The notes below the pieces were generated by a model that saw nothing but the letters and a program-made list of their open reading frames with translations, did no database searches and was not told the origin of the DNA. From the NCBI RefSeq assembly GCF_900109115.1, contig NZ_FNYV01000009.1, forward strand, positions 62,001 through 126,000: DNA of 64,000 nucleotides, given 5' to 3'. Shown one piece after another: positions 58,751 through 64,000 of this stretch (the stretch's first letter is position 1; each line of letters begins with the position of its first letter). A program made the translations under genes and the position numbers. Origin of the DNA: Micromonospora phaseoli (GTDB lineage: Bacteria; Actinomycetota; Actinomycetes; Mycobacteriales; Micromonosporaceae).

Positions 58751-61099
58751 GTGTCCGAGCCGCCACCCGTCGAGGATTCCCCGGGCACCGGCGAACCCGA
58801 CGAGGTCACTGCCGCATCCGGCGCTGCCCCGGCAGAACCGGCCGCGATGATCCCCCAGTTGCTGGTCATGCCGCCTGCCGAGGAGTTGCAGTCCATCGTC
58901 TGGCCCGGTCCGGCCGACCAGCCGGCCTGGGCGATCCCGGTGACCGTCCCGCCCGGTACCCGGGGTTACGCGATCTTCCTCCCACTGCTCGCGCCCGGGG
59001 AACCGGCCAGCACCACCAGCCCGGCCAGCACCACCGGCCCGGCCAGCACCACCGGCCCGGCCAGCACCGCCGGTCCGGACGCCCCGACGACGACGCGCGC
59101 CGCCGTCTCGGGGCAGCCGGCCACGGTGTCCGCCCCGATCGAAGCAGCCCGCGCGACGCTGCCGTCGCCGCGGAAAGCCGAGGTGACACCAACCCGACCA
59201 CCCGAGGCGGCCACCGCCGCCACCACCGGCGCACCCCACGTCACGGTGACCACCGCCGTGACCACAGCGGACGACCGGGCGACGACCCCACCGGCACCGC
59301 AAGGTGTACCGACGGAGACCGCGACCCCGTCCGCCAGCGCTTCGACCGGCCCAGCCGACGCGACAAGCCCGGCCGACGCGACAAGCCCGGCCGACGCGAC
59401 AAGCCCAGCCGACGCGACAAGCCCGGCCGGCGCGACAAGCCCGGCCGGCGCGACAAGCCCGGCCGGCGCGACAAGCCCGGCTCGGTCGGCGGCCGGGAAC
59501 CGGCTCGGGCCGCCGGTGACAGCCGCCGGCCCGCGCGGCTACCCGCCGCCCGGCTCGCCGTACTCCTTCCGACCGTTGCCGCCGCAGACGTCGTTCTTCG
59601 ACCGGGCGTGGCCCGGACCGGGACCAGCCCGGGACCGGGCCACTCCACTGGCCGTCCTGGTGGGGGCGCTGGGCGTGGCCGCCTTCACGCCGCTGGGCCG
59701 CACCGGCGTCGGCTGGCTCCTCGGCTGGCTGATCCTCACCGCCGGTGTCACCGTCGCGGTACGGCGCCACACCGCCGAGATGCCCCGCGCACAACGGTGG
59801 ATCCGAGCCGGTTGGGCCGCTGCGGCTCTGGCGCTGCTCGGCGTGCTCGCCTTCCGCAACGCCTGGTGGCTGGTCACGTTCTGCGTACTGGGGGCGTTGG
59901 GCTGCGCGGCGCTGGCGATCGTCGGTGGCCGGCGGGTCCGGTCGATCCTGTTCAGCCTGGTGGCCGCCCCGATCGCGGCGGTACGCGGGCTGCCCTGGGT
60001 CCGTGCCCACGTGCGGGCTCCCGGCGGCGACTCCGGGACCGCGCGCCGGGTCGTCGGCTCGGTCGTCGCCACCGTGGTGGTCCTGGTGGTGTTTGGGACG
60101 CTGCTCTCCTCCGCCGACGCCGCGTTCTCGCAGGCGCTCGGCGCCGTCGTTCCGGAGATCAGCGTGAGCGGGGTGTTCCGCTGGCTGTTCCTGGCCGCCG
60201 TGGGCGCCCTGGTCGCCGTGGCGGCGGTCTACACGATCGCCGCCCCGCCCGATCTGACCTCGGTGGACCGGCCGACGGCGCGCAGCCTCAGCCTGGTCGA
60301 GTGGGCGCCGCCGATCGCCACCCTGACCGCCCTGTTCGGCGGCTTCGTCGCCGTGCAGTTCACCGTGCTCTTCGGCGGGCAGCGGCACGTGCTGGCCACC
60401 ACCGGCCTCAGCTACGCCGAGTACGCCCGCAGTGGCTTCTGGCAACTGGTCGTGGTGACCGTGCTGACCGTGGCGGTGCTCGGCGGCGTGGCCCGGTGGG
60501 CCCGCCGGGATCGGGGGTCGGACCGCGTACTGCTGCGGATCCTGTTGGGTCTGCTCAGCGCGCTGAGCGTGGTCGTCGTGGTCTCGGCGCTGTCGCGGAT
60601 GTACACCTACCAGAAGGTCTACAGCTTCACCGGCGAACGGATCTTCGTGATGGCCTTCGAACTGCTGCTCGGCGCCGTCTTCCTGATGATCCTGGCGGCC
60701 GGCCTACGCTGGCGCGGCGGCTGGATCCCCGGCGTGACCGCGGCGCTCGCGGTGGTGATGCTGCTGGGTCTGGCGGCGCTCAACCCGGAGGACTACGCGG
60801 CCCGCCGCAACGTCGCCCGGTACGAGCAGACCGGCCGGATCGACGCCTGGTATCTGCGGGCGCTCTCCGCGGACGCCACCCCCGCCCTGTCCGCCCTGCC
60901 GGATCCGGTACGTCGGTGCACGCTCAGCTGGATCGCCGACGACCTGGCCGAGCCGGACCCGTGGTACGCCTGGAACCTGGGCCGGCAGCAGGCCCGGACG
61001 GTGCTCGACCGGCTGGGGCCGGACGCGATCGGCAACCAGCGCGACTGCCGCCGCGCCGACCAGTTCGACCTGCCGAAGAGTCCTCGACCGGCGCGTTGA
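58751..61099 (+). CDS. DUF4173-type membrane protein with repetitive N-terminus
   Basis: A 782-residue protein. Residues 1-285 are disordered and rich in Thr/Ala/Pro/Ser; the rest has about 12 membrane helices of DUF4153/DUF4173 type (e.g. LLLRILLGLLSALSVVVVVS, FVMAFELLLGAVFLMILAAG) and a soluble end (YLRALSADATPALSALPDPV). Function not established for the family. AGGAGGGC precedes GTG 58751. Two tandem repeat tracts lie in the N-terminal part, see 59006-59479. Confidence 0.88.
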   Translation: MSEPPPVEDSPGTGEPDEVTAASGAAPAEPAAMIPQLLVMPPAEELQSIVWPGPADQPAWAIPVTVPPGTRGYAIFLPLLAPGEPASTTSPASTTGPASTTGPASTAGPDAPTTTRAAVSGQPATVSAPIEAARATLPSPRKAEVTPTRPPEAATAATTGAPHVTVTTAVTTADDRATTPPAPQGVPTETATPSASASTGPADATSPADATSPADATSPADATSPAGATSPAGATSPAGATSPARSAAGNRLGPPVTAAGPRGYPPPGSPYSFRPLPPQTSFFDRAWPGPGPARDRATPLAVLVGALGVAAFTPLGRTGVGWLLGWLILTAGVTVAVRRHTAEMPRAQRWIRAGWAAAALALLGVLAFRNAWWLVTFCVLGALGCAALAIVGGRRVRSILFSLVAAPIAAVRGLPWVRAHVRAPGGDSGTARRVVGSVVATVVVLVVFGTLLSSADAAFSQALGAVVPEISVSGVFRWLFLAAVGALVAVAAVYTIAAPPDLTSVDRPTARSLSLVEWAPPIATLTALFGGFVAVQFTVLFGGQRHVLATTGLSYAEYARSGFWQLVVVTVLTVAVLGGVARWARRDRGSDRVLLRILLGLLSALSVVVVVSALSRMYTYQKVYSFTGERIFVMAFELLLGAVFLMILAAGLRWRGGWIPGVTAALAVVMLLGLAALNPEDYAARRNVARYEQTGRIDAWYLRALSADATPALSALPDPVRRCTLSWIADDLAEPDPWYAWNLGRQQARTVLDRLGPDAIGNQRDCRRADQFDLPKSPRPAR
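59006..59479 (+). repeat. Two 18-bp tandem repeat tracts inside the DUF4173 gene
   Basis: The first tract (59006-59077) is four copies of gccagcaccaccrgyccg, encoding ASTTGP-type units; the second (59354-59479) is seven copies of gccgrcgcgacaagcccg, encoding ADATSP four times and AGATSP three times. Units are in frame, so copy number can vary without breaking the protein. Confidence 0.85.
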
Positions 61100-62564: not shown

Positions 62565-63386
62565 TCACGTCGTCGAGGTGAGGCCGCCACGCGGCTGGGC
62601 GACGTCCTCCTCGATCGCCGGCCCGTACCCCTCGTCGACGCTGACCTTGCGCGCGATGACTCCGAGCAGGACGCCGTACACCACTTTGGAGGTGATGTCG
62701 GCGAGGGTGTAGGTGATCTGTCGGGCGACGACGCCGTCGGCGGAGTCCCACATGGCCGGCATCAGGTACGCGCCGGGGTAGAGCAGCCAGGAGATCAGCA
62801 GCAGCCACCACACCGCCTTGGCGATCGGCCGTGCGGAGATGGGCAGCCGGTGCAGGTTGCCGAAGATGACCCGGTAGACCAGCACGAGCAGCAGCACGAA
62901 GAACGCGGTGCTGACCAGGCCCCAGATCCAGAAGGGCGCCGACCGGTCGACTTCGTGGAACTGGCCGGCGTAGCCGGTGTAGATCATCGCCAGCCCACCG
63001 ACGACGAAGAGCACCCAGGTGCGGTGGAACGCCCGGCCGGTGATGCCGAGTACCACCAGCAGTTGGATGAGCAGCACCGGCACGTCGATCGACCAGTTCA
63101 TGTACCGGTAGCCGTTGCTGAACAGGATGTCGCTGCCCACGTACGCGGTGCCGGTCCAGTCGAACGCCTCGGACCAGCGCTGGGCCAGTACCCACAGCTC
63201 GAAGAACGCGGAGATCATCACGACTGCGGAGAGCGTCGAGGCCAGCTGGTAACGCCGTCCGGACGTGTTCCGGGTGAGCAGGAAGTAGACCAGGCCGGCG
63301 GCCATCACCGCATAGCCGAGGGTCAGCACATGCGAGACGATCGTGTACTGGTCGACGTTGTAGTCGAACAAGTTCTCAAAGTTCAC
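62565..63386 (-). CDS. Type-1 microbial rhodopsin with NDQ motif (probable light-driven sodium pump)
   Basis: A 273-residue seven-helix retinal protein. Helix C reads YRYMNWSIDVPVLLIQLL: Arg94, then Asn97, Asp101 and Gln108 at the positions of bacteriorhodopsin D85, T89 and D96, i.e. the NDQ signature of sodium-pumping rhodopsins such as KR2. Helix G has ADITSKVVYGVLLG with Schiff-base Lys234 and Asp230. NFEN near the N-terminus, SHVLTLGYAVM, TGYAGQFHEV and SWLLYPGAYLMP also follow KR2. The KR2 uptake-site Asn61 is Ser50 here. The GTG start has GGGAG upstream. The retinal-forming blh gene is divergent with only a 33-54 base gap. Confidence 0.95.
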   Translation of the reverse strand: MNFENLFDYNVDQYTIVSHVLTLGYAVMAAGLVYFLLTRNTSGRRYQLASTLSAVVMISAFFELWVLAQRWSEAFDWTGTAYVGSDILFSNGYRYMNWSIDVPVLLIQLLVVLGITGRAFHRTWVLFVVGGLAMIYTGYAGQFHEVDRSAPFWIWGLVSTAFFVLLLVLVYRVIFGNLHRLPISARPIAKAVWWLLLISWLLYPGAYLMPAMWDSADGVVARQITYTLADITSKVVYGVLLGVIARKVSVDEGYGPAIEEDVAQPRGGLTSTT

Positions 63387-63426
63387 GGCACTCCCGCCAG
63401 ATCACTGCTTTCGTCCCAAATGAGGC

Positions 63427-63432
63427 TATATG
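63427..63432 (+). promoter_or_regulatory. -10 box of a leaderless blh promoter
   Basis: TATATG, conspicuous in this DNA, ends eight bases before GTG 63441 and suits a leaderless message. Confidence 0.45.
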
Positions 63433-63440
63433 GTCCGCTG

Positions 63441-64000
63441 GTGTGGGCGGGTGGAGATCAGCTACCGGCCCGGGTAGCCGTCGTGGCGTCCCGGGCCGTG
63501 GTCGGCGCCACGCTCGCCGTCGAGCTGGTGGTGCCGGGCGGCTGGGGCGACGCCGGCCCGGCTCTGCTGGTGGCCGGCCTGGTCGTCGGCATTCCGCACG
63601 GTGCGCTGGACCACCTCGTACCCCGGTTCGTACTCGGCCCGCGGGCACCGCGCGTGGCACTGCTCGCGGCCGGCTACGCGGCGCTGGTCGTGGCGGTCTT
63701 CCTGGCCTTTCGGGCGCTACCCGGGCCGGCCCTGCTCGCCTTCCTGCTGCTCTCCGCCGCCCACTTCGGCACGGGTGAGACGGCCTTCACCGACTTCCGC
63801 GCCGGCCGCCCGTCCCGCATCGACCCGCTCACCGCCGCCGCCTTCGGTACGACGCTCGTGCTGCTGCCCCTCGCGGCGCACCGGGCCGAGGTGGCCCCGC
63901 TGGTCGCGGCGCTCTCCGCCGGTTCCGGCGGCCTGCCCCCCGGCCCGGCCCGCGCGGCCGTCACCGCCGTGACCGTCCTCGCCGTCGTCGCCGGCGTACG
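63441..64000 (+). CDS. blh: Brp/Blh-family beta-carotene 15,15'-dioxygenase, 5' part
   Basis: The first about 187 residues of an integral membrane enzyme that splits beta-carotene into two retinal molecules, the chromophore of the neighbouring rhodopsin. The histidine motifs of the family are in place: VVGIPHGALDHLVP and LLLSAAHFGTGE, within hydrophobic helices. The frame is open to the end of the window, so the gene is cut. ATG 63420 is in frame too (MRLYGPLVWAGG) but has no ribosome-binding site; GTG 63441 follows a TATATG box. Confidence 0.92.
   Translation, partial: MWAGGDQLPARVAVVASRAVVGATLAVELVVPGGWGDAGPALLVAGLVVGIPHGALDHLVPRFVLGPRAPRVALLAAGYAALVVAVFLAFRALPGPALLAFLLLSAAHFGTGETAFTDFRAGRPSRIDPLTAAAFGTTLVLLPLAAHRAEVAPLVAALSAGSGGLPPGPARAAVTAVTVLAVVAGV

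Follow-up and report, generated by a model that had tools for sequence, protein, structure and literature searches.

The 64,000-nt stretch of Micromonospora phaseoli DNA analysed here (the window) ends with a microbial rhodopsin gene and the beginning of a divergently oriented gene for a retinal-making enzyme (Table 1). Which ion would such a rhodopsin move, how would it be supplied with retinal, and is it the only rhodopsin of the cell? Judging from the sequence, its residues, the family placement, the predicted fold and the presence of one Blh gene, the locus very probably encodes an NDQ rhodopsin of Subgroup 2 that pumps Na+ outward in the light, together with a retinal-making enzyme; Na+ transport, ion selectivity and enzyme activity are all predicted on this basis.

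The initial annotation, made from the letters alone, regarded a light-driven Na+ pump as unusual for an actinomycete, a view that finds no support here. One of the 12 NaRs expressed in a 2017 study came from Micromonospora sp. CNB 394-2 and gave a current of 1-2 pA (PMC5531490), which by its presence speaks for a Na+ pump in the window and by its small size against one. Of 160 genomes surveyed in the genus, 17 have an NDQ gene. The protein from that strain (WP_018784639.1) resembles the window protein in being an NDQ rhodopsin of the same genus. With the window protein a known pump family, already represented in the literature for this genus, gains a new member. The wider finding is a conserved cassette of NaR, xenorhodopsin and Blh genes, which is not in the literature located by keyword searching.

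Table 1. Positions of the features discussed (window numbering unless a contig or locus is named)
Feature	Position	Strand	Basis or remark
NDQ rhodopsin (NaR family, Subgroup 2), 273 aa	62565..63386	-	ORF, profile match, alignment, tree, predicted fold
Helix G D230 and retinal lysine K234	62685..62699	-	Translation and alignment
Helix C motif N97, D101, Q108	63063..63098	-	Translation and alignment
Glu63 codon (KR2 L74, ErNaR E64)	63198..63200	-	Extra carboxylate near the Schiff base, the mark of Subgroup 2
Short divergent intergenic stretch	63387..63440	.	AGGCTATA-like element kept in two relatives with the same layout
Brp/Blh beta-carotene 15,15'-dioxygenase, 5' part	63420..64000	+	Family profiles; gene continues 421 bases beyond the window (end L003:6422)
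Xenorhodopsin	C19:401888-402538, L004:7880-8584		PF01036 match, unlinked to the window NDQ gene

A rhodopsin of the Na+ pump family

The rhodopsin ORF starts with GTG, and its product matches the Bac_rhodopsin profile over its full length (PF01036, E 2e-37). Translation and alignment with KR2 find the ORF, its coordinates, N97-D101-Q108, D230, K234, S50 and L67 all where the initial annotation had placed them: KR2 N112, D116, Q123, D251 and K255 correspond to N97, D101, Q108, D230 and K234, and KR2 N61 and Q78 to S50 and L67. The residues that characterise NaRs (R109, N112, D116, Q123, D251 and K255 in KR2 numbering) are all present, and E160, R243 and G263 of KR2, the Krokinobacter eikastus pump, are kept as well. 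Unlike KR2, the window protein has Glu for L74, Leu for Q78 and Ser for N61, carries Ile87 in place of D102, which is part of the interprotomer Na+ site, and has a BC loop shorter by 4 residues. The dN/dS of the gene relative to three relatives is 0.20-0.25, which argues that it is maintained.

The best 24 matches in the PDB are NaRs and their NTQ relatives (E 2e-66 to 9e-61), the closest solved relatives being IaNaR, an NTQ chloride pump, KR2 and ErNaR. An AlphaFold model (pLDDT 91.7) has the seven-helix fold and superimposes on ErNaR and KR2 with a TM of about 0.87-0.92. In a fold search the NTQ pumps (Z 38) came out ahead of ErNaR (36) and KR2 (35), and this slight lead counts against a Na+ pump, though the Thr of the NTQ pumps is Asp here. 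Identity as an NTQ chloride pump was ruled out, since Asp101 stands at the KR2 D116 position where those pumps have Thr.

A tree of 88 NDQ and NTQ sequences (quick search, SH-aLRT support only) groups the window protein with that of the Micromonospora genome G065 (SH-aLRT 95), nests it among 17 sequences of the genus, 16 of them from others (96), and sets this group inside an all-NDQ actinobacterial clade of 25 rows (99). Nine named loci of the genus, probably from the same genomes as rows already in the tree, were left out, as were the short or odd sequences L061 (DTE-type), L089 (unreadable) and L098 (a fragment). Of the phylogeny that the initial annotation had proposed, the position within the NDQ clade stands; the NTQ rows were preset as the outgroup, so the tree is silent on NDQ versus NTQ monophyly. 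PDB matches, aligned residues, tree and predicted fold together bear out the proposed membership of the NDQ/NaR family. Among the 80 loci kept of 173 found in a scan of named records, the nearest NDQ relatives are from Micromonospora and Verrucosispora (75-81% identity), and other genera reach at most 70%. Plasmid relatives amounted to just two records, at 29.5% identity.

Subgroup 2 and the proposed pumping mechanism

Subgroup 2 of the NDQ rhodopsins is defined by a Glu at the position of KR2 L74 (PMC11006869), and in the alignment Glu63 of the window protein occupies this position. In ErNaR the Glu is reported to be bonded to the NDQ aspartate, whose pKa it lowers, and pumping is almost independent of pH; the authors suggest that it also confers greater Na+ selectivity, and they count SrNaR as the sole Subgroup 2 member studied (PMC11006869). 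ErNaR (Erythrobacter sp. HL-111) shares with the window protein the NDQ motif, the Glu at KR2 L74, the Leu at KR2 Q78 and the fold (TM about 0.90); the window protein is unlike it in being actinobacterial and only about 42% identical, and in having a gene that adjoins blh. All 17 NDQ proteins of the genus carry the Glu. It recurs in 21 of the 80 kept loci, one of which (L089) is unreadable at this position, namely in 17 of 17 actinobacterial and four cyanobacterial ones. Subgroup 2 thus takes in every actinobacterial NDQ gene examined here, and four from cyanobacteria.

The initial annotation had overlooked both Glu63 and the second rhodopsin of the genome, and had proposed instead that Ser50 and Leu67 might alter ion choice. 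As determinants of ion choice these two fall away: among the 80 kept loci most relatives from outside the flavobacteria have Ser at the KR2 N61 position, Leu67 corresponds to L68 of ErNaR, and the KR2 Q78L exchange reportedly leaves pumping unaffected (PMC11006869). The telling difference from KR2, as far as the alignment goes, is Glu63 rather than Ser50 or Leu67.

If the protein works like its homologues KR2 and ErNaR, light would isomerise the retinal bound to K234, upon which the Schiff-base proton would move to D101, with a hydrogen bond from E63 keeping the pKa of D101 low. Cytoplasmic Na+ would be taken up next, pass, and be released outside. The residues involved in release we take to be R94, E145 and R222, after R109, E160 and R243 of KR2.

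That the protein might instead serve mainly as an H+ exporter in a native setting low in Na+ appears very unlikely. KR2 and similar NaRs do transport H+ in the absence of Na+ (PMC5531490), and competition of Na+ and H+ for uptake has been suggested in both subgroups (PMC11006869). Yet ErNaR, a Subgroup 2 protein, is reported to carry hardly any H+ current under Na+-free conditions, even when the internal pH is 5 (PMC11006869), and the window protein has the same Glu.

Retinal synthesis

The divergent blh gene that the initial annotation saw beside the rhodopsin is real: its product scores 170 bits against TIGR03753 (cut-off 95) and 173 bits against PF15461 (cut-off 28). The window holds the first ~580 bases of it. 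Translation begins at ATG 63420 or GTG 63441, and two relatives with the same layout conserve the GTG, not the ATG. The dN/dS of Blh relative to two relatives is 0.36-0.46. It is the one PF15461 match of its genome, and window-type Blh proteins form a separate branch (support 85) outside the Blh of the cassettes described below (24 rows, support 99). An AGG[CTG]TA[TA] motif is found in 4 of 14 three-gene cassettes and in the window, and a count of 5 in 15 sequences was not attained in any of 2000 single-base shuffles; the motif was picked after inspection, so a shared promoter element is a lead at most. For an empty-site comparison the left neighbour gene of the window locus was sought in 41 genomes, and it turned up (E 1e-60) in none but the window's.

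Blh would cleave beta-carotene supplied by unlinked crt genes. The genome has one gene of the squalene/phytoene-synthase family (C7:380081-380866), for which no NCBIfam equivalog cut-off was reached, and with it lie a crtE-like polyprenyl synthetase gene and a crtI-family desaturase gene over its cut-off. A crtY-type cyclase is encoded at C29:33737-34843 (E 4e-72); the crtY-family control was positive in 10 of 14 genomes, 9 of them over the cut-off, so that family membership alone is weak. A CarR-type lycopene cyclase was also sought, and the genome gave no match to it, the crtY-type match being found instead. With these genes the route to beta-carotene looks complete. The search for crtY, crtB and further blh genes that the initial annotation had proposed showed the window's Blh to be the only one, and a full retinal route, with blh in the window and crt genes unlinked at C7 and C29, is plausible. 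The C7 carotenoid cluster (L171:5691-10941) also contains a CarH/LitR-like MerR regulator, which scores under the cut-off of the CarH model and has one B12-binding domain over its cut-off and one under it; a regulator of this kind suggests light control of the retinal precursor supply.

A second rhodopsin in the same genome

PF01036 has exactly two matches in the genome, the window NDQ rhodopsin and a xenorhodopsin on contig C19. In the PDB the latter is closest in sequence to Anabaena sensory rhodopsin (ASR, E 4e-65), followed by BcXeR (2e-54); by fold its model (pLDDT 94.6) matches BcXeR (1.6e-16) and ASR (2.9e-16) practically equally, with TM values of 0.90-0.92 to the two crystal structures. 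The protein has E36, D75, K211 and D218 (E36, D75, K210 and D217 of ASR). As is expected of a xenorhodopsin, the D212 carboxylate is lost (P207) and the Asp at the D85 position is kept (D75), and in all these respects, D217 and E36 included, it is like ASR, BcXeR and PoXeR, the last of which absorbs at 567 nm. It differs from these three in its DTA motif, with Ala at the D96 position, and most xenorhodopsins of the genus differ from them in carrying Ser, not Pro, at D212. Arg72 is retained as in ASR and BcXeR; Trp or Phe has been given for xenorhodopsins at this position (PMC9601134).

E36, D75, K210 and D217, among them the cytoplasmic E36/D217 pair, are retained in 23 of 23 xenorhodopsins of the genus. 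The PoXeR counterparts of E36, D75 and D217 along the inward H+ path are E35, D74 and D216, of which D216 is the H+ acceptor and is tuned by E35 (PMC5118547); K210 is the retinal lysine.

No gene for the ASR transducer (ASRT) lies in the same operon as the C19 xenorhodopsin gene; the next gene, on the opposite strand, codes for a GMC oxidoreductase. An ASRT-family gene is found on another contig (C24:67396-67752, E 3e-42), where a Na+/H+ exchanger gene (PF00999) lies some 4 kb away without adjoining it (L201:872-8014). The C19 xenorhodopsin clusters with its Pseudokineococcus counterpart (support 88), not with that of G065 at the same chromosomal site.

The three-gene cassette in Micromonospora

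PF01036 matches clearly over the cut-off occur in 24 of the 160 Micromonospora genomes surveyed; matches under the cut-off (G006, G023, G109) were dropped, as were rows from the wider family about the cut-off with no rhodopsin match (G195, G334) or under it (G323). All matches of the genus over the cut-off are of NDQ or xenorhodopsin type, and none is an outward H+ pump. NDQ genes are present in 17 genomes, xenorhodopsin genes in 23 and both in 16, a co-occurrence with a Fisher p of 1e-15 that is uncorrected for kinship.

In 14 of the 16 two-rhodopsin genomes the NDQ and xenorhodopsin genes are divergent neighbours, with starts 110-210 bp apart and blh behind the xenorhodopsin gene, which it overlaps by 4 bp in 5 of the 14. 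A conserved site, with guaA on one side and a GMC oxidoreductase gene on the other, holds the full cassette in 11 genomes, xenorhodopsin and Blh in four, and xenorhodopsin alone in two, the window's included; away from it the full cassette occurs in three genomes and xenorhodopsin with Blh in three. The NDQ-Blh layout of the window is found in three genomes (the window's own G000, G065 and G135), and none of the five tested flanking genes of the window is shared by G065 or G135. In G000 and G065 both rhodopsin genes are present and unlinked. Since just one Blh was found in the window's genome, it would have to serve both rhodopsins, barring another carotenoid-cleaving enzyme or retinal from outside. 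All nine named Micromonospora and Verrucosispora loci among the 80 kept have the same NDQ-xenorhodopsin-Blh layout; they probably belong to genomes already among the 160 and were not added to the counts. A side observation concerns the Blh frame of G073 (L044:10713-12287), which stays open for 524 aa and runs into a Cys-rich segment, where relatives stop at about 300-370 aa; it may be a fusion or have lost its stop.

Micromonospora type strains have been described as carrying proteorhodopsin-family genes, some together with sensory rhodopsin II genes, and more work on them was urged (PMC5765111). The accessible part of that paper makes no mention of NDQ, xenorhodopsins or gene pairing, and a literature keyword search, of a kind that can miss papers, returned no description of a NaR-xenorhodopsin pair in Micromonospora or Micromonosporaceae. 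To judge from the shared species names these are probably the same genes, for which the present assignments suggest better names than "proteorhodopsin" and "sensory rhodopsin II".

What the two rhodopsins may do together

We lean, tentatively and short of calling it probable, towards two independent rhodopsins that are linked solely through their common need for retinal, their genes gathering at blh and being passed on together with it. What the various layouts share is Blh: NDQ and Blh occur without an adjoining xenorhodopsin gene in the three genomes of the genus and in 6 of 7 Geodermatophilaceae loci, and xenorhodopsin and Blh without NDQ in seven genomes of the genus and at three loci elsewhere in the family. 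The overlap of xenorhodopsin and blh genes and the separate branch of window-type Blh point the same way. Against this stand G000 and G065, in which a Blh accompanies the NDQ gene and a xenorhodopsin gene without a neighbouring Blh is nevertheless kept elsewhere; moreover, a shared need for retinal leaves the second rhodopsin in 16 of 17 NDQ genomes unexplained. This last count speaks for a joint function, in which the NDQ protein would export Na+ and the xenorhodopsin import H+, amounting to light-driven Na+/H+ exchange by two proteins with little net charge and a shared retinal synthase. Light would then do the work of an Na+/H+ antiporter, serving Na+ and pH homeostasis. The divergent arrangement in 14 of 16 genomes, the inward-path residues in all 23 xenorhodopsins (by comparison with PoXeR, PMC5118547), the lack of an outward H+ pump among the matches of the genus and the retention of both genes in G000 and G065 despite their being unlinked all argue for exchange. 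So do the Na+/H+ antiporter genes that adjoin nanohaloarchaeal xenorhodopsins (PMC3198991) and Parvularcula oceani, which likewise has a NaR (PoNaR) and a xenorhodopsin (PoXeR), seemingly without an outward H+ pump (PMC5118547); unlike the Micromonospora genomes it has a Cl- pump (PoClR) as well, and gene pairing is not mentioned in the accessible part of that report.

We nonetheless consider exchange rather unlikely. The Fisher value ignores kinship, H+ import is argued from xenorhodopsin homology, and xenorhodopsins do without NDQ in the seven genomes of the genus and at the three loci of other genera. In the Geodermatophilaceae all seven NDQ genomes tested are without a xenorhodopsin match better than 4e-11. 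As a general association of the two rhodopsins, the pairing was rejected in 390 genomes drawn from the order of G365, where 14 have NDQ-type genes (possible NTQ included, and two with stops), five have xenorhodopsin genes and one, G365 itself, has both, which is no excess; Hymenobacter arizonensis (G369), which carries both, lies outside this draw. The genes of the putative exchange system normally form one divergent cassette, which in the window's genome is not in one piece. Ranked level with exchange, and to us equally doubtful, is a xenorhodopsin that acts as a photosensor in the manner of ASR and regulates genes, perhaps those of the Na+ pump or of carotenoid synthesis. ASR is the best sequence match ahead of BcXeR and practically ties with it by fold, and an ASRT-family gene is present in the genome. 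That gene, however, is on a different contig from the xenorhodopsin gene, which no transducer gene follows; ASRT homologues occur in many genomes free of xenorhodopsins (PMC3198991), and the C-terminus is short, the long Arg-rich tail of ASR being missing in PoXeR too (PMC5118547).

As to what light-driven inward H+ pumping is for, the authors of the PoXeR study described its role as hard to approach, since the native cells could not be grown in culture (PMC5118547). With nine named Micromonospora and Verrucosispora loci in which the xenorhodopsin gene directly adjoins the NDQ gene, this role becomes accessible to expression, deletion and growth tests. Exchange, if true, would give xenorhodopsins the physiological role that they lack.

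NDQ rhodopsins beyond the genus

A search for xenorhodopsins in 31 NDQ genomes drawn from the 80 loci gave an intact full-length match in six, one of which is without E36 and D217, a broken gene in two and a fragment in one. The set excludes Micromonospora and Verrucosispora as well as MAGs and uncultured organisms (bar one uncultured Pseudokineococcus), and also leaves out the cyanobacterial L076 and L092, which have no species names, and L089, the second locus of one genome. Membership of Subgroup 2 was rejected as a predictor of a xenorhodopsin, matches being found in 3 of 10 Glu-type genomes versus 5 of 21 others with the two broken genes counted. The split, stop-bearing or fragmentary xenorhodopsin genes are those of Vasconcelosia (L145 with L164), Lewinella (L146) and Fibrisoma (L147), and they seem to reflect gene decay in some lineages, or assembly errors.

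Other combinations were seen in passing. Modestobacter sp. VKM Ac-2985 (L061:2549-7804) has a DTE-type rhodopsin gene and blh about 2.7 kb before an NDQ gene that likewise has a blh; all four genes share a strand, and the arrangement would pair a Na+ pump with a putative outward H+ pump. The full NDQ gene of Gillisia limnaea is followed after 1.9 kb by a further NDQ-like match that is partial (L098:8669-8989), and Gloeocapsopsis crepidinum LEGE 06123 has two NDQ-like loci on different contigs (L073, L089), the second of which is unreadable in the alignment. Within the window itself, an ORF of 782 aa occupies positions 58751-61099 on the forward strand, and the N-terminal half of its product contains the peptide TSPADA/TSPAGA repeated in tandem.
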